64,000 nucleotides of DNA, taken from positions 186,001 to 250,000 of the forward strand of contig NZ_JAINZP010000003.1 of assembly GCF_020166435.1 (NCBI RefSeq). The letters are read 5' to 3'. This document shows, piece by piece, positions 14,761 to 34,910 of this stretch. The DNA comes from Pectobacterium versatile. GTDB taxonomy: Bacteria; Pseudomonadota; Gammaproteobacteria; Enterobacterales; Enterobacteriaceae. The notes under the pieces were generated by a model. The model was not told the origin of the DNA. It did not search any database and was given only the letters and a program-made list of their open reading frames with translations. How positions within the stretch are numbered: the stretch's first letter is position 1; each line of letters starts with the position of its first letter. Made by a program: the position numbers and the translations under genes.

Positions 14761-14904
14761 GGAGAGGTTTCGTGCGCTTAACATTTGTTTTTCTCTGCAT
14801 GCTTTCCGTATGCGCACGACACAGGGGCGCTCAGTCGCCGCCGCCCTGTGAACCCAGGCTGTTTGGCGGGAGTTCGTTGCGAGTTAAGCGCACGAAATCT
14901 CCCC
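14761..14904. repeat. Family A structured repeat, short copy with terminal inverted repeats
   Basis: The 144-bp element is bounded by 20-bp inverted repeats (left GGAGAGGTTTCGTGCGCTTA; right arm matches 18 of 20). Inside are the hairpins GCATGC/GTATGC and CACAGGG/CCCTGTG and the conserved GGCGGGAGTT stretch. The copies at 25084 and 34666 share this core but are longer. It fills most of the gap between mdtC and mdtD, inside the operon, so it must be transcribed. The small open frames across it look spurious. Confidence 0.75.
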
Positions 14905-14926
14905 TGAAATAACATATTGATTATTA

Positions 14927-17900
14927 TCATGATAGTGACAAATCCTTCTCCGGTGCTTTGCGCCGAATATTCCTCAGCTTGTCGAAAAACAGATACACCA
15001 CCGGAGTGGTATACAGCGTGAGGATTTGGCTCATCACCAGACCTCCGACAATTGTGATGCCGAGCGGTTGGCGCAGCTCGGCACCATCACCGCTGGTCAA
15101 CACCAGCGGCAGTGCGCCAAACAGCGCGGCTAATGTGGTCATCATAATCGGGCGGAAACGCAGCAGGCAGGCCTGAAAAATGGCGTCCTGTGCGCTCAAC
15201 CCGCCGCTGCGCTGTGCCACCAGCGCAAAATCCACCATCATGATCGCGTTCTTCTTCACGATCCCAATCAGCAGCATGATGCCAATGAGTGCCACCAGAC
15301 TAAACGGTGCGCCGAACCACTCCAGCGCCAGCAGCGCGCCTACGCCCGCCGAGGGCAGGGTAGACAGAATCGTCAGCGGGTGCACATAGCTCTCATACAG
15401 CACGCCCAGCACGATATACACGGTGATAATCGCCGCCAGAATCAGCAACAGTTGGGAAGACTGCGACTGCTGGAACGCCTGCGCTGTACCGGAGAACTGA
15501 CCGCGTACCGCTGACGGCACGCCCAGCGACGTCATGGTTCTTTCTATCGCTGCCGTCGCGCTGGAAAGATCGGTGCCCTCCGGCAGGTTAAAAGAGATCG
15601 TCGAGGCGGCAGACAGCCCCTGATGGTTCACCGAAAGCGGCGCGTTGATCGGCTTCCAACTGGCGAAATAAGAGAGCGGGATGGGCTTACCTTCGTTATT
15701 GATCACGAACATTTTGTTCAGTGAACTGACGTCCTGCGTGTAGGCGTTGTCGACTTCCATCACCACCTTGTATTGGTTTAGCGGCTGGTAAATGGTTGAA
15801 ATCTGGCGCTGTCCGAAGGCGTTATTGAGCAGTGCGTTAGCGGCAGAAACGCTGATGCCGAGCTGCGCCATCGCATCGCGATCGTAGGTGAGCGCCATTT
15901 CTGCGCCTTTATCCTGCTGATCGGAGTTCACGTCGGCCAGCTCAGGGAGTTTGCTGAAAGCAGCACGAATCTTGGGTTCCCAGGTGCGCAGCTCGCTCAA
16001 ATCGTCAGACAGCAGTGTGTATTGGTACCCGGCGCTCGCTTCCCGCCCGCCGATACGAATATCCTGCACCGGCATTAAAAACAGGTTGGCACCGGGTTCT
16101 TTTGCCAGCTTGACGCGCAGGCGACTGATCACCTGCTGTGCCGATACATCACGCTCGGACAGCGGCTTCAGTGAGATAAACATCGAGCCGCTGTTGGTGC
16201 GCGATCCGCCGGTAAACCCGTTCACGTTATCCACCGCCGGATCGCTGCTGACAATGGTCATGAAGTTCTGGAGCTTTACCGTCATGGCCTGAAAAGAAAT
16301 GCTCTGGTCGGCCTGAATGAAGCCCATCAATCGGCCCGTGTCCTGCTCTGGGAAGAAGGTCTTGGGAATGCTGATGTACAGCCAAACGTTGAGCGCGATC
16401 GTGCCCAGCAGGAGCAGCAACACCCAGCGCGCATGGTTGAGCACCCATTTCAGCGAGCGCCCGTAGCCTTGCTGCATGGCGAGCAATACACGATTAAAAC
16501 CACGGGTGCGCGGCTGACTGAGTTTGGGAACGGCACGCAGCAGGCGGGCGCACAGCATCGGCGTCAGCGTCAGCGAGATCAGCAGAGAAATCATGATCGC
16601 TACCGACAGCGTGACGGCAAATTCGCGGAATAACCGCCCTGGCAAGCCATCCATCAGCAGCAGCGGAATGAACACCGCAACCAGCGACAGACTCATCGAT
16701 AAGACGGTAAACCCCACTTCGCGCACGCCCTGAAGCGAGGCCTGTAGCGGCTTCATGCCGGCTTCGATGTGGCGGGAAATATTCTCCAGCACCACGATGG
16801 CGTCATCCACCACGAAACCGGTGGCAATGGTAAGCGCCATCAGCGACAGGTTGTTCAGGCTAAAACCGCACAGATACATGGCCGCGAAAGTGCCGATAAG
16901 CGACACGGGGACGGCCAGCGCTGGAATGGCGGTTGCACGGGCTGAGCGCAGGAACAGGAAGACGACAAGAATAACCAGCGCGACGGCGATAATCAGCGAT
17001 TGCTCGACCTCCGCCAGCGAGGCGCGAATGGTGGGTGAACGATCCTGCGCGACGTCCAACTGTATTTCGGCAGGCAGGCTGGCACGTAGCTCTGGCATCG
17101 CGGCGCGGATATTGTCTACCGTGGTGATAATGTTGGCATCCGGTGCGCGGCGAATCATCACCAGAATCGCAGGCTTCGAGTTCGCCATCCCTGCGTTACG
17201 TGAGTTCTGGACGGAATCTTCTACCGTGGCGACGTCGCTCAGGCGGACGGCGGCCCCGTTGTTGTAGTGGATAATCAGCGGCGCGTAGGCATCGGCGGTT
17301 TTTAGCTCATCGTTGGTTTGTATCTGCCAGCTTTTCTGGCTGTTTTCCACGTTCCCCAGCGGCTGGCGCACGTTCGCCTGCGCGATAGCCTGCCGCACCT
17401 CATCGAGGGAAATTCCCTGATTAAACAGCGCCACTGGATTCAGCGCGACGCGCACGGCGGGCAGCGAGCTCCCGCCGATGGAGACATCGCCAACGCCTTC
17501 CATCTGCGAAATTTTCTGCGACAGCTGGGTAGAGGCAAAGTCGTACAGCTGTCCCTGACTGTAGGTGTCCGAGGTCAGCGTCAGAATCATGACGGGGGCG
17601 TCGGACGGATTGACTTTGCGGTAGGTCGGACGGCTGGACATGCCGGACGGCAACAGATTCTGTGCCGCGTTAATGGCTGCCTGCACATCGCGCGCCGCGC
17701 CGTTGATATCCCTGTCGAGATTAAATACCAGAATGACGCGCGTACTGCCGAGCGAGCTGGTGGAAGTCATTTCGCTGACGCCCGCGATCCTGCCGAGTGC
17801 CCGCTCCAGCGGCGTGGCGACGGCAGAGGCCATGGTTTCCGGCGAGGCACCGGGCAGCGAGGCGCTGACCGAGATTACCGGGAAATCCACCTGCGGCAGC

Positions 17901-18007
17901 GGCGACACCGGCAGCAGGCGGAAACCTAATACGCCACAGAGCGCGATGGCCAGCGTCAGCAGCAGGGTGGCAACGGGGCGGTGGATGAACAGGGCGAAGA
18001 ACTTCAC
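14927..18007 (-). CDS. mdtC: RND multidrug efflux subunit MdtC
   Basis: A 1026-residue inner-membrane RND pump protein. It shows the N-terminal membrane helix ([19 protein letters not shown]), the porter-domain segments, and the TM4 motif with proton-relay residues in [15 protein letters not shown]. The second repeat starts near ~530. The C-terminal [15 protein letters not shown] and [16 protein letters not shown] segments are intact. MdtB and MdtC form a heteromultimeric pump with MdtA and TolC; it exports bile salts, novobiocin and other compounds. It overlaps mdtB by four bases (ATGA), which implies translational coupling. Full family length, no frame breaks. Confidence 0.96.
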
Positions 18008-21000
18008 TCGGTTTCTTCCTCCTGACGTGGCGCACGGCGGAAACGCATCGCCAGACGATCAAACAGCAGGTAGATCACCGGTGTGGTAAACAGCGTCAGG
18101 ATTTGGCTCATGATCAGGCCACCGACCATACAGATCCCCAGCGGCTGGCGCAGCTCTGCGCCGACGCCGGTACTCAGCATCAGCGGCAGCGCACTCAGCA
18201 GCGCCGCCATAGTGGTCATCAAAATCGGCCGGAAACGCAGCAGACAGGCCTGATAAATCGCGTCATACGGTTTCATGCCCTGTTCTCGCTCCGCCGCCAG
18301 CGCGAAGTCGATCATCATGATGGCGTTCTTCTTCACGATCCCGATGAGCAAAATGATCCCGATAATGGCGATCACATCCAGCTCATTCCCCGCCATCATG
18401 AGCGCCAGCAGTGCGCCGACGCCCGCCGTTGGCAGCGTAGACAAGATGGTGATCGGGTGAATAAAGCTCTCGTATAGCACGCCAAGCACAATGTACATCG
18501 CGACAATCGCCGCCACGATGAGCCATACGGTGCTGCTCAGCGCTGACTGGAACGCCAGCGTACTGCCCTGAAAGCGAGTGGTGATATCCGCAGGCAGGTT
18601 CATCTGCTGCTCGGCCTGCGTGATGGCATCAACCGCTTCGCCCAGCGCATAGCCTTTAGCGACGTTGAAGGAGATTGTCGTCGACGGGAACTGGTCGATA
18701 TGGTTGATTGCCAACGGCCCCTGACGCTCTTCAATGGTGGCAATGCTGCTGAGCGGAATGGTCCCGCCGTCGCTGCTGATGAGGCGTACGTCGTTCAGCG
18801 CGTCCAGACCGGTGTTGTTGGTCGTATCGTGCTCCAGCACCACGCGATACTGGCTGGCCTGCGTATAGATGGTGGAAACCAGTCGCTGACCAAAGGCATT
18901 GTACAGCGCGCTATCGACCTGTGACATTGTAATACCCAGACGGCTGGCGCTGTCGCGGTTCACGTTGACGTAGGCGACCGCTGCGCCGTCTTGCCAGTCG
19001 CTGCTGACATCCTCTAGCTGCGGCAGTTTTTTCAACTCGGTCATCAGCTTTGGCACCCACTCGCTCAGCTCGTCCAGCGACATCGCCTGCAAGGTAAACT
19101 GGTATTGCGTGCGGCTAATCTGGGTGTCGATGGTGAGATCCTGCACCGGTTGCAGATACAGCTGAATGCCGGGGATCTGGGCAGTTTGCTGTTGCAGGCG
19201 ACTGATGATCTCTGGAATACGTTCGCTGCGTTCACTGAGCGGTTTCAGGTTGATTTGCAGTCGGCCGCTGTTCAGCGCGGCGTTTGTGCCGTCAACGCCG
19301 ATGAACGAGGACACGCTTTCCACCGTCGGATCTTTCATGATGATGGATGCGACGCGCTGCTGGCGGTCGGCCATATTGCTGAACGAGACCGTCTGCGGTG
19401 CCTGCACGGTGCCCTGAATGATGCCGTTATCCTGTATCGGGAAGAAGCCTTTCGGGATCCAGATATAGAGCAAAACTGTCAGCAGCAGCGTACCGAGCGC
19501 GACGCTGAGTGTCAGCCACGGATGATTCAACACCTTGCGCAGCCAGACGCCGTAGGCATCAATCAGGCGAGTGAAGAAACGTTCGCTGGCGCGGGTAAAG
19601 CGGTTCTGTTTACGCAGCGACTGATGGCTCAGCATTCGTGCGCACATCATGGGCGTCAGCGTGAGTGACACGACGGCGGAAATCAGGATAGACACCGCTA
19701 GCGTGACGGCGAATTCGCGGAACAAGCGTCCGACGATATCGCCCATAAACAGCAGCGGGATCAGCACGGCGATGAGCGAGAAAGTCAGAGAGATAATGGT
19801 GAAGCCGATTTCCCCTGCACCTTTCAGCGCCGCGTTAAGCGGTTTTTCCCCTTTTTCGATATAGCGGGCGATGTTTTCAATCACCACGATGGCATCGTCC
19901 ACCACGAAACCGGTGGCGATGGTGAGCGCCATGAGCGTCAGGTTATTGATGGAGAAACCGAGAAAATACATGGCGGCAAAGGTGCCAATCAGCGACAGCG
20001 GCACGGCAATGCTGGGGATCAGCGTGGCGACGGCGTTACGCAAGAACAGGTAAATCACCATCACGACCAGCGCGATAGCCAGCAGCAGCTCAAACTGGAC
20101 GTCTTTCACCGAGGCGCGAATGCTGGTGGTGCGGTCAGTCAGCGTGGTGACTTCGACAGAGTTCGGCAGGCTGGCTTTTAACGCGGGCAGCATCTTACTA
20201 ATGCTGTCCGTGGTCGTGATGACGTTGGCACCCGGCTGGCGCTGAACGTTGATAATGATCGCCTGCTGCCGATTCGCCCAGGCACCGAGATGAATGTTCT
20301 CGGCGGCCTGCTCAATCGTTGCGACATCCTGAAGCCGCACCGGCGCGCCATTCTTCCATGCAACAATCAGCTTGCGGTAATCATCAACGGACTTCATCTG
20401 ATCGTTGGCGGAGAGCGTCACCGAGCGCGTCGGACCATCCAGGCTCCCCTTGGCGGAATTCACGTTGGCGGCAGTAATGGCGGTGCGGATCGTTTCGCTG
20501 GTCAAACCGTACGCCGCTAGCGCTGGCGCGTTCAGCCTGACCCGTACTGCCGGACGTTGCCCACCGGCTAACGATACTAGCCCGACGCCCGCCACCTGCG
20601 AGATTTTCTGCGCGATGCGGTTGTCCACCATGTCCTGCACCTGCGTCATCGACATGGCGCTGGAGGTGACGGCCAGCGTCATAATCGGCGGATCCGCCGG
20701 ATTCACTTTGCTGTAGGTCGGTGGGTAGGGCAGATCGTTAGGCAGCAGGTTGCTGGCCGCATTGATGGCGGCCTGAACGTCCTGTTCGGCGACGTCCAGC
20801 GATAGCTCAAGCTGGAATTGAAGCGTAATGACGGATGCGCCGCCTGCGCTCTGCGTCGACATCTGTTTTAGCCCGGACATCTGTCCGAACTGCCGCTCCA
20901 GCGGCGCGGTAATCGCCGAGGTCACCACGTCGGGGCTGGCACCGGGATACAGGGTAATAACCTGAATCGTCGGATAATCGACTTCGGGCAACGCGGACAC

Positions 21001-21126
21001 CGGCAGCGCCCGATAGCCGATAATACCGGCGAGCAGAATGGCGATCATCAGCAGCGTCGTGGCGACCGGACGCAGAATAAACAGGCGTGACGGCCCACCG
21101 CCGCTGGCTGGAACGGTATCCTGCAT
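18004..21126 (-). CDS. mdtB: RND multidrug efflux subunit MdtB
   Basis: A 1040-residue RND protein, the partner of MdtC. The N-terminus [21 protein letters not shown] is the usual first helix. [20 protein letters not shown] holds the TM4 acidic pair needed for proton translocation, and [18 protein letters not shown] the second-half repeat. Two large periplasmic loops follow TM1 and TM7, as in all HAE-1 pumps. The start overlaps the mdtA stop by one base, and the stop overlaps mdtC by four, so the three genes are tightly coupled. Length equals the E. coli protein. Confidence 0.96.
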
Positions 21127-22361
21127 CAGGATTTCTCCCCAGCGATTGCGGGCGTTTTCTCCGTCAACGCTGAGGGAATGACTTCCACTTTCGCGCCTTC
21201 GGTCAGGCGGTCGATACCGTCAGTCACGACCTGAACATTCGCGTCCAGCCCGGCGGTCACGACAACCAACTGGCCGTACTGAATACTGGTGGTAACCTGA
21301 CGCTTACTCACTTCATTTTTATCATTCAGAATCCAGACGAAGCGGCCTTCATTGCCCATTTGTACGGCGGCGGACGGCGCGACGACGGCATTTTTCAGCG
21401 TGTCGACCTTCATGCGGATATTCACGAACTGGTTCGGGAACAGGGCATCGTCCAGATTGTCAAAACGCGCTTTGAGCTTGATCGTGCCCGTGGTGGCGTC
21501 GATCTGGTTGTCCATGCTCAGCAGGATGCCCTGCGAGAGTTTCTTTTGATTAGCACGATCCCAGGCTTCTACCACGGGCGGCTGACCTGATTTCTGCGCA
21601 CTCAGAATCGTGGAGATTTCCGCTTCCGGTACGGTAAAGACCACATCAATAGGGTAGGTCTGCGTAATCACGACAATGCCATTGGTGTCGCCGCTGGTGA
21701 TGTAATTCCCCACATCGACCTGTTTTAAACCGATCCGACCGCTGATAGGGGCGGTGATTTTGCTGTAATCCAGCTGAAGCTGTGCGCTGGCGACGGCACC
21801 TTCATCGGCTTTTAGCGTGCCTTCCGCCTGACGAACGGCGGCGGTCTGCGCATCCAGTTCTTGACGGGAGATCAGGTTGGTTTTCACCAACTGCTGATAG
21901 CGCGCTAAATCCTGTCGGGCGTTAGCCAGTGAGGCCTGATCTTTTGCCAACTGTCCCTGAGCCTGCGTCAGCTCAACCTGAAAAGGACGAGGGTCGATTT
22001 CCGCCAGCAGCTCGCCAGCCTTAACCTGTTGCCCTTCCTGAAAGTGCAACGCCATCAACTGACCGTTCACCCGGCTGCGCAGCGTCACAGTATTGGCTGC
22101 CGTCACAGTGCCTAAACCTGACAGATAATAGGGCACGGAAGCGGATTGCGTCATCGCAGCCTGCACAGGGGCCAGCGTGCGCATAGCAGCGCGGCGTCCA
22201 CCGCCATTGCTATTGCTTCCCGAATGTGACGTACGGGCGGCATGCTGTTCACTCGTGCCAGGGGCGGCAGGCGGTACCTGGGTAAAATGGCGCCAGATCA
22301 GTACGGCAATAGCGATAACGGCGGCAATTACCAGCAGGCCTCGGATACGTTTGGCATTCAT
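21126..22361 (-). CDS. mdtA: Membrane fusion (periplasmic adaptor) protein MdtA
   Basis: A 411-residue periplasmic adaptor that links MdtBC to an outer-membrane channel. It begins with an N-terminal membrane anchor ([19 protein letters not shown]). The lipoyl/barrel-sandwich halves are recognisable ([26 protein letters not shown] and, after the alpha-helical hairpin at ~125-185, [19 protein letters not shown]). The beta-barrel and membrane-proximal domains run to the end. It is the first gene of the operon, so the promoter should lie in 22362-22606. I could not identify a clear BaeR box there; an ERIC remnant is present. Confidence 0.95.
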
Positions 22362-22408
22362 AGTGATGGATTACTCTCTCCAGGTTGCGCGGGAGGCACG
22401 GCGTAGCC

Positions 22409-22436
22409 GCATACTTCACGCTGCATGTGCGTTGGC
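22409..22436. repeat. ERIC remnant upstream of mdtA
   Basis: GCATACTTCACGCTGCATGT followed by GCGTTGGC differs from the left arm of the ERIC at 57629 at only two or three positions, then similarity stops. It is a short leftover of an ERIC element in the mdtA promoter region. Confidence 0.6.
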
Positions 22437-22550
22437 TGTCATACCCAGCACGTTATTAGACCAATGGCCTTATTTTACTAGTTTAAACAAGGGATGCCGG
22501 ACAAAAATGAAGGAATTATGGAAGATATGTCAGGGTTTGTAGGAAAAAGA

Positions 22551-22575
22551 ATCCGGCAGCACAAGGCTGCCGGAT
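22551..22575 (-). terminator. nupC terminator
   Basis: ATCCGGCAGC and GCTGCCGGAT form a perfect ten-base stem with an ACAAG loop, 31 bases after the nupC stop. On the minus strand it is followed by TCTTTTTCC. A good intrinsic terminator. Confidence 0.85.
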
Positions 22576-22606
22576 AGAGATAAAAATTTTATAACGTGAT
22601 GAAGGA

Positions 22607-23803
22607 TTACAGCACCAGACCGGCAATAGCGGCGGAAAGGATGCTCACCAGCGTAGAACCGTAAACCAGCTTCAGGCCGAAACGGGAAACCACGTTGCCC
22701 TGTTGTTCGTTCAGGCCTTTAATCGCACCGGCAATAATACCGATGGACGAGAAGTTGGCGAAGGACACCAGGAACACAGACAGGATGCCCACGCTGCGTG
22801 GAGACAGTTCGCCTGCTACTTTTTGCAGCTCCAGCATCGCCACAAATTCGTTAGAAACCAGTTTGGTTGCCATGATGCTACCAACCTGAAGGGCTTCGTG
22901 AGACGGGATACCCATGATCCAGGCGAACGGATAGAACACGTAGCCGAGGACTTCCTGGAAGCTGATGCCAAAAATGGCGCTGAAAATCGCGTTGACTGCG
23001 GCAATCAGTGCAATGAAGCCGATCAGCATCGCTGCAACGATAACGGCCACTTTGAAGCCTGCCAGAATGTATTCGCCCAGCATTTCAAAGAAGCTCTGAT
23101 TTTCATGCAGATTACCCAACTGCAATTCCTGCTCTTCACCGACTTTGTAGGGGTTAATCAGCGACAGCACGATGAAGGTACTGAACATGTTCAGAATCAG
23201 CGCGGCAACGACGAATTTGGCATCCAGCATAGACATGTACGCACCGACGATAGACATCGAAACGGTCGACATGGCGGTCGCGGACATGGTGTACATGCGT
23301 TTTTCGGACATCTTGCCCAGAATGTCTTTGTAGGCAATGAAGTTTTCGGACTGGCCGAGAATCAGTGAACTGACTGCGTTAAAGGATTCCAATTTACCCA
23401 TGCCGTTCACTTTGGACAGAACCGTACCAATCGCGCGGATGATGATGGGCAGCACTCTAATGTGTTGCAGGATACCGATCAGCGCGGAAATGAAGACGAT
23501 AGGGCAGAGCACTTTAAAGAAGAAGGAAATCAGGTTCTTCTCACTGTTAACCATGTCACCGAATACGAAGTCCGTCCCTTGACCTGCAAATCCGAGTAGT
23601 TTGTCGAATAGCGCTGCGACCCCTTTGACTGCGCCTAATCCGATGTCGGAGTACAGGAAGAAATAAGCGAGCAAAATTTCGATGACGAGTAACTGAATAA
23701 TAAAACGAATACGAATACTTTTACGATCGCGGCAGACGAGTAGTGCCAGCGCCGCAACAACAACCAGCGCCAGAATAAATTGCGCGATATGGGACAGGGA
23801 CAT
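22607..23803 (-). CDS. nupC: Nucleoside:H+ symporter NupC
   Basis: A 398-residue concentrative nucleoside transporter of the inner membrane. It takes up pyrimidine nucleosides and adenosine with protons. Very close to E. coli NupC throughout, including [40 protein letters not shown] (with the substrate-contacting GQSE) and the C-terminal [18 protein letters not shown]. About ten membrane segments. A loop near residue 270 is a few residues shorter than in E. coli. A GGAG site lies six bases before the ATG. It is monocistronic with its own terminator. CytR/CRP control is known in E. coli; I did not resolve operator sites in 23804-24060. Confidence 0.95.
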
Positions 23804-24060
23804 GTGTGCTCCAAATATGAGGCAGGCCTAATTTTCCACGTCATTTTATGTAACGCGTGCATTAAAAATGAGAGGAAGAACGCAAAAAAACAATTATACC
23901 TTGGGATTTTATCTAAACTAAATGCTACGTCTCGTTATTCGCACTTTTCTGGTCATTCATTATTCTTATTCCACACAGAAAGTGACGTCGGCCTACTTGA
24001 GGTTGCAGGCTGGCGGGGCTTTTCATGATGTTTTCTGCATGATTCAAAAGGAGAGTGATT

Positions 24061-25083: not shown

Positions 25084-25378
25084 GGTTTCGTGCGCCATCA
25101 TACCGCCATTTTCATGCTACCTCGTAGCACGCGCCCGACATAGGGGGCTACGCCAGCCCCCTATGAACCCCGGCTTTTGGCGGGAATTATGCCGCTTACG
25201 CGGTGCCATCGGTGTTCATGACCGCTAATCGAGCCACCAGTGACGCGTTCCCGACGCGGCACTGGTTTTCGCGACGTCCTGTCGCTCACTCGGCGGTCAA
25301 GCCCACCGCTGCATAATTTTTACGCCAGATAACGGCAAGATACTCATACATTTACAACATTTATCGCGCACGAAACCG
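25084..25378. repeat. Family A structured repeat, full-length copy with terminal inverted repeats
   Basis: The 295-bp element begins GGTTTCGTGCGC and ends with its exact reverse complement GCGCACGAAACC. Internal stems are GCTAC/GTAGC (25116-25128), an 11-bp stem CATAGGGGGCT/AGCCCCCTATG (25139-25165), CCAGTG/CACTGG (25237-25265) and GCGAC/GTCGC (25271-25285). The copy at 34666 has the same stems at the same places with altered sequence. It fills the 395-bp gap between the aldo/keto reductase and the EIIB gene. A 72-codon frame crossing it has no ribosome site and is taken as spurious. Confidence 0.8.
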
Positions 25379-25421
25379 CCTCAACAGTGGCATAAAAATG
25401 TGACTAAGAGACAGCGAACAT

Positions 25422-25830: not shown

Positions 25831-25880
25831 GGCGACACACGGTGATGAGGTTCCGTAGGAACGTCTTCACCGCGCTCGCC
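25831..25880. repeat. Family B long-hairpin repeat, copy 2
   Basis: GGCGA pairs with TCGCC around an inner CGGTGATG-AGG-TTCC-GTA-GGAA-CGT-CTTCACCG hairpin. It matches the copy at 9761 in the inner stem. It lies 34 bases after the ganB stop and could end or stabilise the gan mRNA, although no T-run follows. Confidence 0.65.
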
Positions 25881-25914
25881 CAGTATCGTAATGCTTAGCC
25901 AACAAGCATGAGCC

Positions 25915-27975
25915 TTACTGTAGCGCGCGGCGTAGAATCCGGCAGCCATAGCCTGACAGGTCAATAAACCCCGAAAGCGTGCTGCCCGTCGTCATTTCCT
26001 CGTAGGTGGCTGGCAGCGCGATCTGTTGCGGCGTTGCGGTGTAGTTCTGTACGAAGATGAACTCGCTTTCTCCGTCATCGCGGCGATGAGCGACAATGCC
26101 GTAGGGCAGGTCGGTCGGCAGCGCACGCGGTAGATCCAGCGTCTGTATCAGCGTGGTGAAGAAATCACGCTGGAAGGCGAGATCGTTGCGCGACGCGATA
26201 TAATAGGCCTGCCCTTTGCCGTGATCATTGACTGTAACAGCCGGACGACCCGCGTAGAAATCGCTGTCATAGGTTGCCAGCGCCCGCGCGCCTTCCAGAT
26301 GAATCAACTCGCACAGGTGGGTGACCTGATACGGGCCGACCAGACGTTGCTCGTTGCCGTCCAGACCGCTGATGCTGTTGCTTTCATGATCGTACAGCCC
26401 ATCGATTTCTTCTGCCCAGATCCCCATGATCGGACGCAGCGGGCCAGGGAAACCGTTTTGGTGACACAGATCGGTTTCGTTGACGACGCCAGACCAGTAG
26501 GTGGTGACGAAGCGACCGCCTTGTTTGACGAAGGCATCGACACGTTCGGCAAAGCCATCGCGTACCATGTAGAGCATCGGTGCGATCACGAGCTGATAAC
26601 CGCTGAGATCGACATCGGCGTTGATGATATCCACCGCCACGCCCTGTTCCCAGAACGTACGATAATGCTCGGTGACAGTTTTTTCGTAGAACAGCCCCGC
26701 GTTGCGCGGCCCTTGGGCGTTATCCATTGCCCAGCGGCTTTCCCAGTCGAAAATGATGGCGACTTTGGCGTCAACCCGACTGCCTGCCACCGGTGCGAGT
26801 TTGTTGAGTATGTCACCCAATTCCTGCACTTCACGCCCTACGCGGGTGTTGATGTGTCCGACATGATCGACCACGGCACCGTGGAATTTTTCAACGGAAC
26901 CGCGGCTCTTACGCCACTGGAAATACTGCACGGAGTCTGACCCGTGCGCGACGGCCTGAAGCGAAGACAGGATATGCATGCCCGGCTTTTTCAGTTTGCT
27001 GATCGGTTGCCAGTTGGTCAGGCTCGGCGTTGACTCCATCAGGTAGAACGGTTTTCCACCTTTCAGCGTACGCATCAGATCGTGATACATCGCGGTGTAG
27101 GCGCCCAGCGTGCAGTCATCTTCCGCGTTATGCCACAGCGGGTAGCTGTCCCAGGAGACGAAGTCGATCACCTTCGCCAACTGCCAGTAGTCGTAATCAT
27201 AGAAATATTCCATGAAGTTCGTCGTCGTTGGCAGAGACGGATTTTCAGCTTTTAGCGGTGCAATTTCGGCGGCACAAAAATCGCTGACCTGTGAGGTGTT
27301 AAAGCGTTTCCAGTCCAGATTCAGGCCGTGGATGGATACTTCACCGATGGACGACGGGGGTTCTAACTGTGACCAGTCGGTGTAGGTGTGGCTCCAGAAG
27401 GTGCTCCACCACGCTTTATTCAGTGCGTCTATTGTGCCGTAGCGCGCTTTCAGCCAGCTCTGGAAAGTGCTGCGGCAGGTATCGCAATGGCATTCGCCGC
27501 TGTATTCGTTGGAAATATGCCAGCCGATCACCGCAGGATGGTGCGAGTAACGCTTTGCCAACTGGGTGTTGATTTGTTTTACTTTCTCGCGATAGTTCGG
27601 CGAGCTCAGGCAGTGGTTGTGGCGACCGCCGTGCAGCGCTTGCACGCGGTTGCTGCCCACGCGCAGCACGTCTGGGTATTTCTGCGATAGCCAAGCCGGG
27701 CGTGCGCCGCTCGGTGTTGCCAGGAAAACGAAGATACCGTTGGCATACAGCGTGTCGAGGATGCCATCCAGCCAGCCAAATTCGTAGCGACCTTCTTCCG
27801 GCTCAATCCCAGACCAGCTGAAAATACCCACGGACATGACGTTGCACTGGGTCTGCTTCATCATCTCAATGTCTTTTTCCAGAACCTCTGGGTCATCCAG
27901 CCATTGGTCAGGGTTATAGTCTGCGCCGTGCAGCAGAACAGGCACCTTGCTGCTTAGCGGGGGGAATTTGAACAT
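25915..27975 (-). CDS. ganB: Beta-galactosidase, GH42 (GanB)
   Basis: A 686-residue cytoplasmic GH42 beta-galactosidase that releases galactose from imported galacto-oligosaccharides. The N-terminal barrel has the metal-binding cysteines (NHCLSS, ECHCDTC), the acid/base Glu in GWHISNEYSGE and the nucleophile Glu in FYLMESTPSLTNW. A Rossmann-like middle domain (VIAPMLYMVRDGFAERV) and a small beta C-terminal domain follow. There is no signal peptide, which fits the Dickeya GanB described as cytoplasmic. AGGAGA lies before the ATG. It is the last clear gene of ganEFGAB. Confidence 0.95.
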   Translation of the reverse strand: MFKFPPLSSKVPVLLHGADYNPDQWLDDPEVLEKDIEMMKQTQCNVMSVGIFSWSGIEPEEGRYEFGWLDGILDTLYANGIFVFLATPSGARPAWLSQKYPDVLRVGSNRVQALHGGRHNHCLSSPNYREKVKQINTQLAKRYSHHPAVIGWHISNEYSGECHCDTCRSTFQSWLKARYGTIDALNKAWWSTFWSHTYTDWSQLEPPSSIGEVSIHGLNLDWKRFNTSQVSDFCAAEIAPLKAENPSLPTTTNFMEYFYDYDYWQLAKVIDFVSWDSYPLWHNAEDDCTLGAYTAMYHDLMRTLKGGKPFYLMESTPSLTNWQPISKLKKPGMHILSSLQAVAHGSDSVQYFQWRKSRGSVEKFHGAVVDHVGHINTRVGREVQELGDILNKLAPVAGSRVDAKVAIIFDWESRWAMDNAQGPRNAGLFYEKTVTEHYRTFWEQGVAVDIINADVDLSGYQLVIAPMLYMVRDGFAERVDAFVKQGGRFVTTYWSGVVNETDLCHQNGFPGPLRPIMGIWAEEIDGLYDHESNSISGLDGNEQRLVGPYQVTHLCELIHLEGARALATYDSDFYAGRPAVTVNDHGKGQAYYIASRNDLAFQRDFFTTLIQTLDLPRALPTDLPYGIVAHRRDDGESEFIFVQNYTATPQQIALPATYEEMTTGSTLSGFIDLSGYGCRILRRALQ

Positions 27976-27985
27976 CGTTCTCTCC

Positions 27986-28196
27986 TAAACGGGTTGTCAC
28001 GCTCTGAATACGGTTTGCGTGTTCGAGATAGCTGGCAATGTGCTGATGCGGCGATGATGGGTAGATCGTAAAGACGCTGTGAATACATCCCTGTACGCTC
28101 GGGTTGCGCCATCCCTGGCGCAAACGCTTTACTCTTCTATCCCATTATCGCCGCTCTTGTTCAGTTAAACGGGTTGTCACGCTCTGAATACGGTTT
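27986..28196. repeat. 31-bp perfect direct repeat flanking a 149-bp segment between ganA and ganB
   Basis: The same 31 bases, beginning TAAACGGGTTGTCACGC and ending TGAATACGGTTT, occur at 27986-28016 and 28166-28196. They enclose 149 bp with no gene but with a GCGCC/GGCGC hairpin. The outer copies touch the ganB ribosome site and nearly touch the ganA stop. It looks like a short sequence duplication or the trace of a lost or inserted element. Confidence 0.85.
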
Positions 28197-28201
28197 ACGA
28201 C

Positions 28202-29416
28202 TTACTTAAACGCTTTGATGGAAGGCAGTACGTTGCCTTTGCAGTCGAACAGCGCTTGGTTTTCCCGCGCGTTGCCTTCTTTCCATTCGTCGTTGTTGTA
28301 TTTCATACCCGCTTTCGTGGCCCAGGTTGCGCCGGGGGTAGGCAGCCAGATTGGCTCCCAATAGAAGACGCCTTTGCCGCGCTGGTTGGGTACGTTGATG
28401 ACGCTTTGCATCAAATCGTGCAGGTAATTGGCCTGACCCTGAACGGAAGCGGGGTAACCGCCAGCATCCAACTCTTTTTGCTGGAAGCTGTTTTCCGCGT
28501 TATCGCAGTTTTCCAACGTGTAAGCATAGGCGGCTTCAACCACGATGATGTCTTTATTGTAGCGTTTGGTGACGTCGTTCATGTTGTACTGCAACGCGCT
28601 GATGGGGCCGTTCCAGTAGGTGTAGAACGAGGCACCGATGACATCAAACGGGACATTACGTTTGACGATTTCATCGAACCACCAGATAAAGGTGTCGTTT
28701 TTGGTGCCTTCCGCCAGATGCAGCATGATCTTGACGTTATTCGCGCCCTGTACGTCCTTCACGCCCTGAATACCGGCTTTCAGCATCGCCGCGAGGCGAT
28801 CGAATTCGCCGCCACCCTGACCCCAACTTTTTCCTTCCGGCCACAGCATTCCGCCGTTCAATTCGTTACCGATCTGCACCATATCCGGCATGACGCCCGC
28901 TTTCTGGAATTCGCTAATGGTGGCTTTGGTGTAGTCATGTACGGCAGTTGTGAGCTGCGCTGCGTTTAGGCCAGACCAGGCTTTAGGCTTGTTTTGGTGA
29001 GCCGGATCGGTCCAGAAATCGCTGTAGTGGAAATCCAGCAGCACTTTCATGCCGTTCGCTTTGGCGCGTTTAGCCAGTGCCAGCGTGGTAGCCAGATCGT
29101 TGTTACCGCCGCCGTAACCGTTGCCCGCTGCATCTTTCGGATCGTTCCAGATGCGCAGACGGATATAGTTAATGCCGTTCTCTTTCAGGATCAGCATGGC
29201 ATCTTTCTGTTTGCCATGTTCGTCATAAAATTTGCCGCCGTGCTTTTCCACCTCATTCAGCATGGAAATATCCGCGCCTTTAATGAAATCGGCAGGGACG
29301 TTCGTCAACTTATTGATCGTCACATTCTCTGCGGCATACAGGGTTTGCGGCAGGGAGAAGGTCAACAGGCCAGTTGCCAGCATGGCGGCCATCAGTACGC
29401 GTTTTTTCATTTTCAT
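28202..29416 (-). CDS. ganA: Arabinogalactan endo-beta-1,4-galactanase, GH53 (GanA)
   Basis: A 404-residue exported GH53 enzyme that cuts the beta-1,4-galactan side chains of pectin. The signal peptide (KKRVLMAAMLATGLLTFSL, cleavage likely after LYA) directs it to the periplasm. The mature domain starts with FIKGADISMLNEVEKHGG. Catalytic residues are the acid/base Glu in VQIGNELNGGMLWPEG and the nucleophile Glu in IIVVEAAYAYT. The conserved RLRIWNDPKDAAGNGYGGGN strand is intact. It is fourth in the ganEFGAB operon. An AGGA site precedes the ATG. Confidence 0.95.
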   Translation of the reverse strand: MKMKKRVLMAAMLATGLLTFSLPQTLYAAENVTINKLTNVPADFIKGADISMLNEVEKHGGKFYDEHGKQKDAMLILKENGINYIRLRIWNDPKDAAGNGYGGGNNDLATTLALAKRAKANGMKVLLDFHYSDFWTDPAHQNKPKAWSGLNAAQLTTAVHDYTKATISEFQKAGVMPDMVQIGNELNGGMLWPEGKSWGQGGGEFDRLAAMLKAGIQGVKDVQGANNVKIMLHLAEGTKNDTFIWWFDEIVKRNVPFDVIGASFYTYWNGPISALQYNMNDVTKRYNKDIIVVEAAYAYTLENCDNAENSFQQKELDAGGYPASVQGQANYLHDLMQSVINVPNQRGKGVFYWEPIWLPTPGATWATKAGMKYNNDEWKEGNARENQALFDCKGNVLPSIKAFK

Positions 29417-29451
29417 TTTACGTTCCTGGAATAGGTACAGATGTTGAGTTA

Positions 29452-30300
29452 TTACCCTTTGGTTCCGCCTGAGGTCAGGCCGGAGACAAAGTACTTTTGC
29501 AATGAAAGATAAAGAATGGCGACCGGTACCGCGATCAGTACGGCTCCAGCGGCGTAGGTGGTGTAGCTGGCTCCCATCTTCTGTGAGACCAGGTTGTACA
29601 GCCCGATGGGCAGCGTGTACTGATCCGGCGTGCGCAGGATGGTGCTGGAGAGAATGAAGTCGCCCAGCGGGCCGGTAAACGAGAACAGGGCTATCACCGC
29701 GATGATCGGTTTGGACAGCGGCATAATGATCTCGATAAAGATGCGGAAGTTGCCTGCACCGTCCATACGCGCGGACTCATCCAGATCTTTCGGAATGGCA
29801 TCCAGATAGCCTTTCATCAGATAGGTATTCATCGGGATCATGCCGCCGACGTAAACCAGCACCAGCGCAATATGGCTGTTCACCAGCCCCAGCATCTGCG
29901 CCAGTACGAAGATGGCGATCAGCGCGGAGAACTGCGGGATCATCTGCAAGAGTAGAAACAACATCAGCCCATTCTGGCGGCCGCGAAAGCGGAAGCGAGA
30001 GAAGGAATATGCGGTGAAACTGACGCTGACGAGCGTCAGAATCATGGTCAGGAAGCTGATTTTCATCGAGTTCCAGTACCATGCCGCGTAGTCAATCTGG
30101 CCGTTAAACAGCTCCTCATAGTGAATAAAGGAGAAGTTATCCGGGATGATCGAGGTGTTGAGCAGGCTGTTGCCGGGGTTCAGCGACGCGCCAACCGTCC
30201 AGATCAGTGGATAAATAATGATGACTGCCACGATCGTCAACAGCAGGTAGGTCAGGCCGAGTTTGATAAAATTCTGGCGTTTAACGCTGTGTTTTTTCAT
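29452..30300 (-). CDS. ganG: Galacto-oligosaccharide ABC permease GanG (MalG-like)
   Basis: A 282-residue inner-membrane permease of the CUT1 sugar ABC family with six membrane segments. The EAA loop, which docks the ATPase, is seen in LDESARMDGAGNFRIFIEII. The C-terminus ends FVSGLTSGGTKG, the usual MalG end. Homologues in Dickeya form GanEFGK. It starts 12 bases after ganF and precedes ganA by 36, within one operon. Confidence 0.93.
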   Translation of the reverse strand: MKKHSVKRQNFIKLGLTYLLLTIVAVIIIYPLIWTVGASLNPGNSLLNTSIIPDNFSFIHYEELFNGQIDYAAWYWNSMKISFLTMILTLVSVSFTAYSFSRFRFRGRQNGLMLFLLLQMIPQFSALIAIFVLAQMLGLVNSHIALVLVYVGGMIPMNTYLMKGYLDAIPKDLDESARMDGAGNFRIFIEIIMPLSKPIIAVIALFSFTGPLGDFILSSTILRTPDQYTLPIGLYNLVSQKMGASYTTYAAGAVLIAVPVAILYLSLQKYFVSGLTSGGTKG

Positions 30301-30312
30301 CTGCGCGCTTTC

Positions 30313-31629
30313 CTATGCCATGTTGTCTTGTTTGAAGGAATTGGTGGCGCGGAACTGCCACAGCGCGACGCCCACAACAAAAATCGACAGCAGAATGGTG
30401 ATGCTGGCTGCGATCGCATATTGGGAAGAAGACATGGTCAGCTTATAAATCCAGGACACCAGAATATCCGTCCCGCCCGCATTGGAACCGATCACCGCCG
30501 GTCCGCCGTTGTTGAACAGATAGATGATGTTGAAATTATTAAAGTTGAACGTGTACTGCGTGATGATGATCGGTGCAATGGAGTAGAGCACCAGCGGCAG
30601 CGTGATGGTGGTCAGCTTGTACCAGCTGCTGGCGCCGTCAATGGTTGCGGCTTCGTACAAATCGTCAGGAATCGCCTGCAATACGCCGGTGGTCATGGCG
30701 AACACAAAGGGGAAACCTAACCAGGTTTGCATCAAGATCAGTGCGGTTTTGGTCCAGAATGGATCGGTCATCCACGCCTTGGGTTCAATCCCCAATGCGG
30801 CCAGAATGCCGTTATTAATCACGCCAAACGTTTCGTTAAACATCCCCGCGAAAACCAGAATAGTGACGAAACCCGGCACTGCCCATGGCAGGATCAGAAT
30901 GGTGCGGATCAGCGGTTTGAAACGCAGCCCTTTCTGATTTACTAAAATCGCCAACAGGATGCCTACGGCGCACTGGAGTGTGGTCGCAATCAGCGTCCAA
31001 ATCACCGTCCATTGCAGCACGTCAAAGAATGTCGAACGCCAGAGATCGAGCCGGAAGATGTTGATAAAGTTCGTCATCCCTACCCAGTCGACCAGCTTGG
31101 CGGGCGGCGTGTGATAGAGATTGTAATTGGTAAAGGCGATGGAAAAACCGAAAATAATCGGGAAAACCACGACAAAGACCAGCAAGATGAAGCTGGGGGT
31201 GATCATCAGATAAGGGAAGCCTTCGCTCAGCAGCATCTGATATTGCTTCTTCACGCTGTTCAACGGCAGACCTTTATCGCGTCTGGCACCGCACGCGTAG
31301 GCATCGCGCAGGCTCAAATAGTAAACGCCGACGCCAAAGGCGGCGACGATCACGCTGATAATGCCTTTTGCCAGCAGAAAGATAGAGTGATCGCGCGGCA
31401 GCTCAGTGCCCAACGTGATGAGCCCCCAGGCACCGTTTCGCAGGAAATCATGGAATATACCGATGAAGCAGGCCATGACGATAAAGAAAAGCGCGCCTTT
31501 GACGAACTGGCGATTATAAATCTGTCCGAGTCCGGGGACGAGCGCCAGCAATACAGCCGTTCTGGCGTGGCGACATCCTCTCTCTTGTGGCGTAAGGCCG
31601 CTGGCGTTGACGGTCACATCTACCTCCAT
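30313..31629 (-). CDS. ganF: Galacto-oligosaccharide ABC permease GanF (MalF-like)
   Basis: A 438-residue CUT1 permease, partner of GanG. It has an extended N-terminal membrane region (LVPGLGQIYNRQFVKGALFF) before the core permease, a periplasmic loop, and the EAA loop DLYEAATIDGASSWYKLTTI. About eight membrane segments. The ATG at 31629 (MEVDVTVNAS) is chosen; a GTG nine codons upstream is also possible, and neither has a strong ribosome site. It lies between the binding-protein gene ganE (89-base gap) and ganG. Confidence 0.9.
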   Translation of the reverse strand: MEVDVTVNASGLTPQERGCRHARTAVLLALVPGLGQIYNRQFVKGALFFIVMACFIGIFHDFLRNGAWGLITLGTELPRDHSIFLLAKGIISVIVAAFGVGVYYLSLRDAYACGARRDKGLPLNSVKKQYQMLLSEGFPYLMITPSFILLVFVVVFPIIFGFSIAFTNYNLYHTPPAKLVDWVGMTNFINIFRLDLWRSTFFDVLQWTVIWTLIATTLQCAVGILLAILVNQKGLRFKPLIRTILILPWAVPGFVTILVFAGMFNETFGVINNGILAALGIEPKAWMTDPFWTKTALILMQTWLGFPFVFAMTTGVLQAIPDDLYEAATIDGASSWYKLTTITLPLVLYSIAPIIITQYTFNFNNFNIIYLFNNGGPAVIGSNAGGTDILVSWIYKLTMSSSQYAIAASITILLSIFVVGVALWQFRATNSFKQDNMA

Positions 31630-31717
31630 TTTCTTAAAAACATGGGTATCCCTCACATCCCGAAACCGATTGGGGAGAAATAAGGGATCCCATGTTGACC
31701 CACGGTGGTGCGGGGGA

Positions 31718-32953
31718 TTACTGGTTACTGTGGTTAGCTTCGATCTGCATTTTGATAATCTTCACGGCAGATTCCAGCGCCGCTTTGGTGTCCTGCTTGC
31801 CGGTCACGCTCAGTTGCAGCGCGCTGTTCGCTGGCGTCCAGACTTCCTGCATTTCCGGTACGCTCGGCATAGGAACGGCATAGCCAGACTGGATCGCGAC
31901 AGCACGGGATTTTTCGTCATCCTTAATCAGCGGATCGTCAACCAGCGCCGCGATCGGTGGGATTTCGCCGGTTAACTGGAAGCGAATTTTGGCGTACTCA
32001 GGCTGATTGATGAACTCAATGAATTTCTGCGCTAGCTCTTTGTTTTTAGAGTAGGTGGAGATGCTGTAGCCTTTCACGCCCAGCAGCGAACGCGGATGCT
32101 CGCCGTTTGGCAGCAGTGGCAGTGGGGCGACGCCATAGTTTACGCCTGCGTTTTTGTACGGCTGGAATGCCCACGGGCCGGTAATCACGGCAGCGGCTTT
32201 TTTCTCGGTAAACAGGGAGTCGATGGCGTTAGCGCCGGTTTCACCGACGATGCCCGGCGGGAACAGGCCATCGGCGTAGAATTTCTTGATGTAGTTGACG
32301 GCATCGATGGTGGCTTGTTTATCCAGACCGATGTCTTTTACGTTCGGTGAACCGTTGCTGTTCTGCCCGAAAATGTAGCCACCCATCCCAGCGATGACGC
32401 CATAGGCGTAATAAATTTCGTCAAATTTCGCCAGCAGACCATAGCGGCCTTCGGCACGTTGCTGTTTGGAGAAGGTGAACAAGTCGTCGAATTTTTCCGG
32501 CGGCTGTGGCATCAGGTCTTTGTTGTACACCAGCACGGTGGTTTCAACGGCTTTCGGCACGCCATACAGCTTACCGTTATAGGTTTGTGCTTCCAGAGCA
32601 GGTTTGGTGAAACTCGACAGGAATGTCTGATCCAGCTTCAGTTCGCTAATCAATCCCTGAACGACGGCGGTACCCACCTGATCGTGTGGCATCACGATCA
32701 CATCCGGGCCGATTCCTGCTGGGCCATCCAGACGGAGTTTCTCAATCTGCTGCGCGTAGGGCGTTTCCAGCACTTTGATTTTGACATTATTCTGTTTTTC
32801 AAAGGCTTTGATCGCGTCGGCGATGCCATCAGATTTCTTGATATCTTCCCATACCAGAAGTTCTTTGTCGGCTGCCAGCGCTGATTTGCTGAGTACGCCG
32901 GTGATACCCAGTGAAATCATAATGACGGTGGTCAGTGTTTTCATTTTCATCAT
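31718..32953 (-). CDS. ganE: Galacto-oligosaccharide-binding protein GanE (MalE-like)
   Basis: A 411-residue periplasmic solute-binding protein of the maltose-binding type. The signal peptide ends with SALA-AD near residue 27, and the mature part starts ELLVWEDIKKSDGIADAIK. The family patterns GVPKAVETTVLVYNKDLM and AAAVITGPWAFQPYKNAGV are present. It is the first gene of ganEFGAB, facing ganK across a 491-bp control region with GalR-type operators and a CRP-like site. Several Met codons lie at the start; GAGGA is close to the first. Confidence 0.93.
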   Translation of the reverse strand: MMKMKTLTTVIMISLGITGVLSKSALAADKELLVWEDIKKSDGIADAIKAFEKQNNVKIKVLETPYAQQIEKLRLDGPAGIGPDVIVMPHDQVGTAVVQGLISELKLDQTFLSSFTKPALEAQTYNGKLYGVPKAVETTVLVYNKDLMPQPPEKFDDLFTFSKQQRAEGRYGLLAKFDEIYYAYGVIAGMGGYIFGQNSNGSPNVKDIGLDKQATIDAVNYIKKFYADGLFPPGIVGETGANAIDSLFTEKKAAAVITGPWAFQPYKNAGVNYGVAPLPLLPNGEHPRSLLGVKGYSISTYSKNKELAQKFIEFINQPEYAKIRFQLTGEIPPIAALVDDPLIKDDEKSRAVAIQSGYAVPMPSVPEMQEVWTPANSALQLSVTGKQDTKAALESAVKIIKMQIEANHSNQ

Positions 32954-33162
32954 TAGTCCTCAAAGCCCTGGTGGGCCAATCATGGTCGGAAATTGTCGCG
33001 TACTTTCCCGTTTTCACCGTTTTTGCTGTCCCTGTGCGATGTTGGTGTAACGTTACATCACACGGCAGTACACCGAAGGGAATGAGTCATCTAACAGTAC
33101 ACGTTGTTTGGCGATCGTCGCTGTGTGGCGCTTGACGCTTTGTTGCGCGTTTTCCACAAACT

Positions 33163-33178
33163 AGGATAACGGTTACAC
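33163..33178. promoter_or_regulatory. GalR/GanR-like operator half-conserved (ganE side)
   Basis: AGGATAACGGTTACAC has the right half CGNTTNCAC of the GalR-family consensus GTGNAANCGNTTNCAC intact and a weak left half. It is 210 bp before ganE. A further palindrome, TGTAACGTTACA, lies at 33046-33057 with a spacing two bases shorter than the consensus. Confidence 0.5.
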
Positions 33179-33235
33179 CAATGGCGATTACATTAAGCAG
33201 AGTGCGCCACGTCTGCCAGCGAAACATGTAAAGGC

Positions 33236-33251
33236 TGTGATCTTATGCACA
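33236..33251. promoter_or_regulatory. CRP-like site in the ganE-ganK control region
   Basis: TGTGATCTTATGCACA matches the TGTGA-N6-TCACA consensus at nine of ten fixed bases. It sits between the two operator candidates and is placed to serve both divergent promoters. Carbon-catabolite control is expected for this system. Confidence 0.7.
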
Positions 33252-33268
33252 AAAGTAACCCCCTGTTT

Positions 33269-33284
33269 GTGCAAGCGGTTACAC
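33269..33284. promoter_or_regulatory. GalR/GanR operator, perfect match (ganK side)
   Basis: GTGCAAGCGGTTACAC fits all twelve fixed bases of the GalR-family operator GTGNAANCGNTTNCAC. It lies 160 bp before ganK. GanR, encoded nearby, has a GalR-like DNA-recognition helix, so it is the likely binder. Confidence 0.75.
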
Positions 33285-33444
33285 CATGCTGTTATATTGC
33301 AATTATGACCAGCGTGCAGGTAAAACCTGGCCGGATGCTAATGCGTCTGGAAGGGCTACCGAGCCATTTTGAGTCGACGACCACTGGGCCGTTGTGACTC
33401 AGCGCTTATATCCTAAAAAGCAAAATTATCAAGAGGTTACCGTT

Positions 33445-34527
33445 ATGGCGTCGATCCAGTTGGATAGAGTGAGTAAGCATTTTGGCAAAACGATTACGCT
33501 TCACGATGTGAATCTGACGATTGCGGATGGAGAGTTCGCCGTTTTTGTTGGGCCGTCTGGCTGTGGTAAGTCGACGTTGCTGAGAATGATTGCCGGGCTG
33601 GAAGATGTCACGGGCGGTGAAATCATGATTGATGAGGCAGTGGTGAATGATGTTGCCCCCGCTCACCGTGGCGTGGCGATGGTGTTCCAGTCTTATGCGC
33701 TGTACCCGCACATGACCGTCGCTGAGAATATGGGCTACGGCCTGCGTGTGAATGGCGTTCCGAAAGACCAGATTAAGCACCAAATCGAGATGGTGGCGAA
33801 GACGCTGCAACTGTCTCACCTGCTGGAACGTAAGCCGAAGGAGCTATCCGGTGGGCAGCGCCAGCGTGTGGCGATAGGGCGCGCCATCGTACGTAACCCG
33901 AAAGTGTTCCTGTTTGATGAACCGCTGTCGAATCTGGATGCAGAGCTGCGCGTGGATATGCGATTGCACATTGCCAAACTGCATCAGGAATTGAAAACGA
34001 CGATGATCTACGTGACGCACGATCAGGTCGAAGCCATGACGCTGGCCGATAAAATTGTGGTCATGAATTACGGCAAAGTCGAGCAGGTCGGATCGCCGAT
34101 GGAGCTTTATTATCATCCAGTTAATCAGTTTGTCGCGGGCTTTATCGGCTCGCCAAAAATGAATTTCCTGCCTGCGCAGGTTATCGATTGGACGCCGGAT
34201 AGCCTGACGGTGAATGTTGCTGAGCAGTTGCAGCTTGAGCTGCCGATTTGCACTGGCGAACTGACTGTTGGCAGCACGATAACGCTGGGGCTGCGGCCGG
34301 AACACGTGTCACCGGAAGGTGAGGGGATACCTCTGTCATTCGGTTGTGAAGTCGTCGAACGTTTAGGTAACAGTACCTACCTGTTCGGACAATGCTGTGG
34401 CATCGATAACTTCAAACTTCTGCTGGCGGGCGACAGTGCCTTCAAGCCTTATGAACATATTGAGGTCTTCTTCTCCCCGAATAACTGTCTGGTGTTCAAC
34501 GCTGATGGCCTGCGTATCAGTGAGTAG
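33445..34527 (+). CDS. ganK: ABC transporter ATPase GanK (MalK/MsmX-like)
   Basis: A 360-residue sugar ABC ATPase that drives GanFG. Walker [11 protein letters not shown]-loop FQSYALYPH, signature [16 protein letters not shown], Walker [13 protein letters not shown] and the switch His in VTHDQVEAM are all canonical. A C-terminal TOBE-type domain (~240-360; [11 protein letters not shown]) follows. The start at 33445 ([14 protein letters not shown]) is preferred over an ATG 17 codons upstream because AGAGG lies eight bases before it and family alignment begins there. It is transcribed away from ganEFGAB, as described for Dickeya gan genes. Confidence 0.94.
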
Positions 34528-34579
34528 TTAAGTTTTTGAATCGCTTGATCTGAATAGCAAAACCCCTACTAAACATAAA

Positions 34580-34600
34580 CAGCGCCCTTAGCGGGCGCTG
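34580..34600 (+). terminator. Hairpin after ganK
   Basis: CAGCGCCC and GGGCGCTG form an eight-base stem with a TTAGC loop about 50 bases after the ganK stop. No strong T-run follows, so termination may be partial. Confidence 0.55.
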
Positions 34601-34665
34601 GCTTTGCTGCCGCTGTCTACGGCCTATTATAAAAACTGTTTTTCTTTATGCTGATGCGGTGTAAG

Positions 34666-34910
34666 TGTTTCGTGCGTGTTAGGCATCTTATTTCTCTGTA
34701 ACATCGTTACACGCCCGACAAGGCGCGCTCAATCGCCGCAGCGCCTTGACCACTGGCTTTTCGGCGTGATTCGCGCCGCTGCGCGGTTCCTTCGGTATGC
34801 ATGCCTGCTGATCGGATCACCTGCGACGCGTTCCAGACGCGGCGCAGGCTTTCGCGGCGTCCATGCCGCTCATCCGGCAGTCATTCACACCTCAGCGCGA
34901 TTTTTTACGC
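34666..34910. repeat. Family A structured repeat, copy lacking a clear right end
   Basis: It begins GTGTTTCGTGCG like the other copies and keeps their hairpins with changed stems: GTAAC/GTTAC (34698-34710), CAAGGCGC/GCGCCTTG (34719-34748), CCTGCG/CGCAGG (34820-34848) and GCGGC/GCCGC (34854-34869). The loop of the third stem, ACGCGTTCCAGACGCGG, is nearly identical to that of the 25084 copy. The right inverted repeat is not recognisable. It occupies the ganK-ganL gap between two terminators. Confidence 0.75.

Follow-up and report, generated by a model that had tools for sequence, protein, structure and literature searches.

A dispersed repeat of Pectobacterium carries a covarying, strand-specific fold with two GGA-loop hairpins, related to TwoAYGGAY and possibly bound by CsrA/RsmA

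What is repeated between the genes of Pectobacterium versatile: a miniature transposon, a structured RNA, or both? The question arises from a 64,000-nucleotide stretch of its genome (the window), where an earlier note, made from the sequence alone, had described three dispersed copies of an element that looked both MITE-like and like a selected structured RNA, and for which no description was known. All three copies are present, with GTTTCGTGCG on the plus strand at 14767, 25085 and 34667, and every hairpin pair listed in that note could be located in the sequence. Of the inverted ends proposed for the first two copies, the one of copy 2 is exact (25367-25376) and the one of copy 1 has one mismatch (14889-14898); no inverted second GTTTCGTGCG was found at copy 3 when up to one mismatch was allowed. 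Copy 1 had been called internally deleted, and it indeed keeps a remnant of the structured part, which scores ~33 bits in our model (Table 1). With one mismatch allowed, the 10-base end occurs no more often than chance predicts (8 times against 7.5 expected, four of the eight exact). The claim of a repeat rests on long similarity, which extends genome-wide: searching the genome with copy 2 gave 37 places at E ≤ 1 and 30 at E ≤ 0.01, copy 2 included. Rfam at its cut-offs gave no name to any of the three window copies; its other matches over cut-off in the window were a TPP riboswitch (3745-3842, plus strand), CyaR (6645-6729, minus) and Ysr224 (28025-28130, plus).

Table 1. Parts of the three window copies, and loci elsewhere that carry an insert in hairpin 2
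Feature	Position	Strand	Remarks
Copy 1, remnant left by a deletion, flanked by a pair of inverted GTTTCGTGCG-type ends	14767..14898	-	both GGA hairpins lost
Copy 1, RNA remnant	14816-14894	-	R1 match, 33.1 bits
Copy 2, structured RNA	25085..25328	-	5' end 25328, 3' end (CGCACGAAAC) 25085
Copy 2, model core	25135-25328	-	R1 match, 202.6 bits; in the alignments
Copy 2, hairpin 1	25271..25285	-	GCGAC-AGGAC-GTCGC on RNA strand
Copy 2, hairpin 2	25236..25266	-	loop CGGGA on RNA strand
Copy 2, inverted second GTTTCGTGCG	25367..25376	-	beyond 5' end of RNA
Copy 2, outer end CTGTCTCTTAGTCACATTT	25396..25414	-	19/19 to consensus read off the copies
Copy 3, structured RNA	34667..34913	-	no second GTTTCGTGCG found
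Copy 3, model core	34715-34913	-	R1 match, 197.5 bits
Copy 3, hairpin 1	34854..34869	-	GCGGC-ATGGAC-GCCGC on RNA strand; hexaloop A-N-GGA-Y
Copy 3, hairpin 2	34820..34848	-	loop CTGGA on RNA strand
TACTCGCCCCAT insert loci, part 1			L058, L060, L061, L150, L155, L157, L167, L168
TACTCGCCCCAT insert loci, part 2			L176, L192, L202, L206, L218, L255, L357, L367

From 20 near-complete copies of this genome, hereafter own copies, we derived the covariance model R1, which spans 199 positions and has 58 pairs. R1 matched the own genome at 29 places; three of these lie in the window, all three on the minus strand. When copies were collected across the genus, as the earlier note had proposed, each of 25 genomes (own included) contained 16-44 matches, 738 in total with partial ones counted, and a locus of Pectobacterium sp. 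PL152 scored 204 bits. At the family level, 30 of 99 genomes matched, own included, and an order-wide search with strict filters found matches in 11 of 197 genomes, 7 of those in the own family. Copy 2 had no match in either a plasmid or a phage collection. We also searched with a hairpin pattern and, among the matches listed, R1 matched 44 of 51 pattern loci, which were taken from 80 fetched; the matched genera among them were Pectobacterium, Dickeya, Brenneria, Serratia, Yersinia, Acerihabitans and Pantoea and, among the pseudomonads, many Pseudomonas together with Stutzerimonas, Atopomonas and Azotobacter. The seven pattern loci with no R1 match among those listed were four from Syntrophomonas and one each from Myxococcales, Nisaea and Pseudomonas. 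The pseudomonad scores listed are modest, at about 28-70 bits, with 22 bits for one locus cut at its end (L246), and the searched-for hairpin itself contributes part of these scores; some of the matches are partial. No published account of the repeat was found among open-licence papers, and neither its dispersal, nor its spread towards pseudomonads, nor its turnover was found in print there.

In other genera, many copies are arranged as inverted pairs in which the 5' ends of the two RNAs face each other. The genus of genome G020 (L127-L146) carries the RNAs inside elements about 0.4-1.7 kb in size; many of the RNAs are arranged as inverted pairs, and the elements also contain minisatellite spacers and short tandem repeats of the GTCAACGTCTTAAG type. 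In genome G086 (L101, 2438-4102), a unit of about 550 bp that consists of an inverted RNA pair occurs three times in tandem; the genes on either side, read from their frames, resemble secretion-system parts. Rfam matches to MIR869 and MIR7533 fell in repetitive spacer and were taken as chance. Separately, what we read as ERIC-like repeats at L035 (1937-2060), L018 (211-334) and L011 (461-586) matched Rfam V_AS5 with scores under its cut-off.

The earlier note had suggested a covariation test, and we ran one. In a MAFFT alignment of the 20 own copies (A3), which is independent of any model fit, 95.8% of cells pair against 84.2% after shuffling, and 34 of the 58 pairs change on both sides against 19.7; the covariation score was reached by no shuffle. 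The number of further pair types was less striking (60 against 54.7, reached by 12 of 500 shuffles). As a control, partners slid out of register gave 30-46% pairing. A second alignment (A4) comprises 81 matches, 71 of them distinct; of the 47 loci that supplied them, 44 belong to other genera and 3 are own. Here every one of the 58 pairs showed changes on both sides and the score was 0.642 against 0.173; this alignment was fitted to R1 and hence leans towards the model. We conclude that the repeat as a selected structured RNA, its stems kept by compensatory change, is strongly supported by covariation and controls.

The folded strand can also be assigned. On the strand opposite GTTTCGTGCG, G-U cells exceeded A-C cells by 23 to 4 on A3 and by 116 to 49, 77 to 28 and 133 to 21 on the model-fitted alignments A4, A5 and A6, the last three counts omitting pairs often G-U (A5 with such a pair gives 138 to 28); the folded strand is therefore the minus strand in the window. 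When 20 copies were folded, the RNA strand was the more stable in all 19 for which both energies were visible. At its own 3' end the RNA carries the complement of GTTTCGTGCG, and this end closes a helix. G-T is milder than A-C in DNA too, so the strand test does not tell RNA and single-stranded DNA apart.

Two adjacent hairpins keep GGA in their loops, and the distance between the two GGA is 25 nt in all 20 own copies. Counted over distinct rows with loops of 4-9 nt, GGA was present in hairpin 1 in 63 of 68 (A4) and 62 of 63 (A5), and in hairpin 2 in 60 of 64 (A4), 52 of 56 (A5) and 58 of 59 (A6); the rows outside this loop range, nested-insert rows among them, numbered 3 and 4 for hairpin 1 and 7, 11 and 3 for hairpin 2. 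The hairpin 1 count of A6 (61 of 62) is discounted, as A6 was gathered by a pattern containing hairpin 1. In A4 and A5 together, A stands two positions before the GGA of hairpin 1 in 105 of 111 cases, C or U follows the GGA in 114 of 121, and the intervening base varies freely. This A-N-GGA-Y corresponds to the RsmE/CsrA site given in PMC7652899, an ANGGAN hexaloop with the A and GGA fixed. Hairpin 2 has a 12-pair stem and, in the genus, mostly an NNGGA pentaloop with C as the usual first base (41 of 52, A5), and in many other genera a hexaloop. Hairpin 1 has ANGGA, and hairpin 2 keeps GGA, with A at that place only in part.

At the loci given in the last rows of Table 1, an insert of ~75 nt made of several small hairpins and beginning with TACTCGCCCCAT is placed precisely within the hairpin 2 apical loop. 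Its carriers have differing stems, as if the insert were loop-targeted or spread by conversion. Core pieces of it were not found in the window.

We asked how this RNA stands to catalogued families. The RNA is a relative of the Rfam family TwoAYGGAY (RF01731) that stays below cut-off in the own genome; as to the earlier statement that no description was known, Rfam has no entry of its own for it. Of 18 own loci scanned at a loose threshold, two matched RF01731, with 31.3 and 33.3 bits (cut-off 43), and the remaining 16 gave no match; at the cut-off it had no match in the whole own genome. It was over cut-off in 8 of 99 family genomes and in none of 14 control genomes. Its matches overlapped R1 matches on the same strand at 6 of 6 places compared (three in G027, one in G020, two in G002), and among the matches listed for 16 named-record loci (6 of them pseudomonad), the Pantoea one alone passed. 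RF01731 shares clan CL00106 with CsrB. Matching R1 against E. coli csrB directly gave no match. E. coli RyfA was considered and dropped as a relative: there was no ryfA among the Rfam matches, and PMC8205139 was no help.

The MITE side of the earlier proposal fared unevenly. Dispersal stood, as did turnover between related species (below), and the second, inverted GTTTCGTGCG occurs in some elements only. We read a 19-base outer end off the copies, and 13 of 29 rows (two of which share one end) agree with its consensus at 15 or more positions; this end resembles the Tn5 mosaic end. No target duplication was seen by eye in the six copies examined, and sites without the element were not clean empty sites; they held replaced sequence instead. 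As for a matching transposase, the family searched was the Tn5-type PF14706, which was found in 0 of 25 genus genomes and was detected in the E. coli control. As a separate observation, the outer end upstream of GTTTCGTGCG itself forms a hairpin (L014, L016, L022, L023), the arms of which seem to covary (TTAGTC/GACTAA, TTAATC/GGTTAA, TTAGCC/GGCTAA).

We searched for the three window sites in the 25 genus genomes. R1 was present at 25 of 25 loci for site 1, at 17 of 24 for site 2 (the 7 unmatched loci lacking the right-hand anchor) and at 22 of 23 for site 3. Orientation varies between species at all three: at site 3, 9 copies share the orientation of the window copy and 13 have the reverse one; the corresponding numbers at site 2 are 14 and 3, and site 1 has single copies in both orientations as well as inverted pairs. 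On a tree of the flanking genes, which may themselves recombine, orientation must change 8 times among the 22 genomes compared at site 3. Sites 1 and 2 require 2 changes apiece, in 17 genomes for each site once inverted pairs are excluded. In the element tree, site 3 copies cluster largely by orientation, so allele exchange across species could account for many of the 8 changes. Site 1 offers an element that is inverted between colinear flanks (L203 against L200) at 95% identity over 256 bp; it adjoins GGTTTCGTGCGC inverted repeats.

We took advantage of two close relatives (G108 and G110) for a finer comparison with 14 of the 29 own copies. Of the 28 resulting comparisons, 20 were matched at the site (11 in the same orientation, 9 opposite) and 8 were unmatched. 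Cores in the same orientation were 96-100% identical in 8 of 11, and L057/G110 is a fragment. In L039/G110 and L040/G110, flanks and orientation are kept and the cores are 71% and 74% identical to the same-site own copy and 92% and 94% identical to another own copy, L056, which looks like gene conversion or replacement. Among the 9 comparisons with opposite orientation, the core is nearer to a different own copy in 5 (L041/G108, L043 against G108 and G110, L049/G110 and, narrowly, L055/G108), and two are diverged (L042/G110, 75% over 105 columns; L045/G110, 80%); we therefore rejected simple recent flipping as a general explanation. L046/G108 (98.5%) is clearly the same element inverted, and L056/G108 (95.4%) perhaps so. 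In G108, the sites of L039, L040 and L057 have no match and carry a different sequence of 37-54 bp instead; by eye, at least two of the three include a G+C-rich hairpin. These comparisons establish element turnover at orthologous sites; it may have come about by inversion, replacement, re-insertion or loss of half an inverted pair.

The neighbourhoods of the 29 own matches were 13 convergent, 16 co-directional and 0 divergent, from crude ORF calls that count one overlapping pair (L062 and L063) twice. In the co-directional regions, the RNA is sense to the genes in 10 and antisense in 6, so sense is not clearly favoured. No shared promoter upstream of the copies was recognised by eye. Small-RNA sequencing in Pectobacterium atrosepticum is reported in PMC4710047, and those data may already include transcripts of the element.

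We considered four explanations for this combination of properties. The one we put forward, and judge about evenly poised between right and wrong, is that a mobile repeat of ~350 bp encodes, opposite GTTTCGTGCG, a branched RNA of ~250 nt that presents two CsrA/RsmA sites from within 3' UTRs. The RNA would be transcribed by read-through, its two GGA hairpins could hold one CsrA/RsmA dimer, and the dozens of copies could together form a distributed sponge that works alongside rsmB/csrB, or could anchor CsrA at 3' ends. Movement of the copies and exchange between them would rely on ectopic recombination or on a transposase. In favour stand the covarying stems, the strand bias, the kept GGA loops at constant spacing, the link through TwoAYGGAY to the CsrB clan, the location of the copies and their turnover. 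The changing orientation, and the long stems and pentaloops of hairpin 2, are our doubts about this mechanism; PMC7652899 notes that very stable stems may hinder CsrA. The RF01731 scores under cut-off, the missing R1 match to csrB, the mixed sense and antisense positions and the failure to recognise a shared promoter also weigh against it. Alternatively, the element could act at 3' ends without CsrA, its fold stabilising or ending transcripts between genes and its GGA loops serving folding or another protein. The preference for convergent over divergent neighbourhoods fits this, as do the G+C-rich hairpins at sites that lack the element and the tail-to-tail bias of other repeats (PMC2718517). 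A pure stem function, however, explains neither an A-N-GGA-Y with a free N that is kept across genera nor the strong strand preference, and we hold this alternative to be rather unlikely.

The structure could also matter as DNA, the strand folding as single-stranded DNA recognised by a transposase or recombinase and any RNA being incidental. Dispersal, inverted pairs, outer ends and orientation differences speak for it, and the strand test is neutral here; the want of a Tn5-type transposase and of a visible target duplication count against it, as do loops that match the site of an RNA-binding protein, and we regard it as improbable. An ordinary IS50/Tn5-type MITE whose hairpins are decay products would account for the outer end, both in its likeness to the mosaic end and in its recurrence among the rows. 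It was already disfavoured because the stems covary, and with no 9-bp duplication seen by eye and PF14706 in none of the 25 genomes, we rejected it as the main reading and consider it very improbable.

Bacterial interspersed repeats are mostly regarded as DNA parasites or terminators. The present one, matched 16-44 times in each genome, retains a fold specific to one strand together with two loops that fit the site of a global regulator, and it links an Rfam family of unknown function to a mobile repeat. More broadly, and only tentatively, our preferred reading may extend to a mobile RNA family of Enterobacterales and pseudomonads that acts as a fast-turning distributed CsrA/RsmA sponge in 3' UTRs, with folds kept while cores and orientations are swapped. 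If true, the binding capacity of a global regulator would evolve through a repeat and not through one sRNA gene. A direct prediction is that CLIP of CsrA/RsmA would give peaks over the copies, and natural compensatory variants are available for testing by the hundred.

Among known systems, MITEs, REPINs/BIMEs and the Pseudomonas fluorescens R families (PMC2718517) are likewise intergenic, dispersed and hairpin-rich, with ends partly inverted and partly inverted pairs; compared by description, our repeat differs from them in its strand-specific covarying fold. It resembles CsrB/RsmB-type sponges in its GGA hairpin loops, in the A-N-GGA-Y hexaloop and through the clan common to CsrB and TwoAYGGAY, whereas those sponges are encoded by one gene and this repeat is dispersed, and a CsrB takes about 18 CsrA subunits (PMC7652899) against two strongly kept GGA sites here. 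The likeness to TwoAYGGAY lies in two adjacent GGA-loop hairpins inside a short closing stem, and CsrA binding has been proposed for that family in PMC4333381. The own-genus copies differ from TwoAYGGAY in that their branched fold is longer, with a third hairpin added and a helix closing the 3' side; they also score under the cut-off and are dispersed in tens of copies. RF01731 itself has multi-copy matches in other genera, for which no describing paper was found among open-licence papers.
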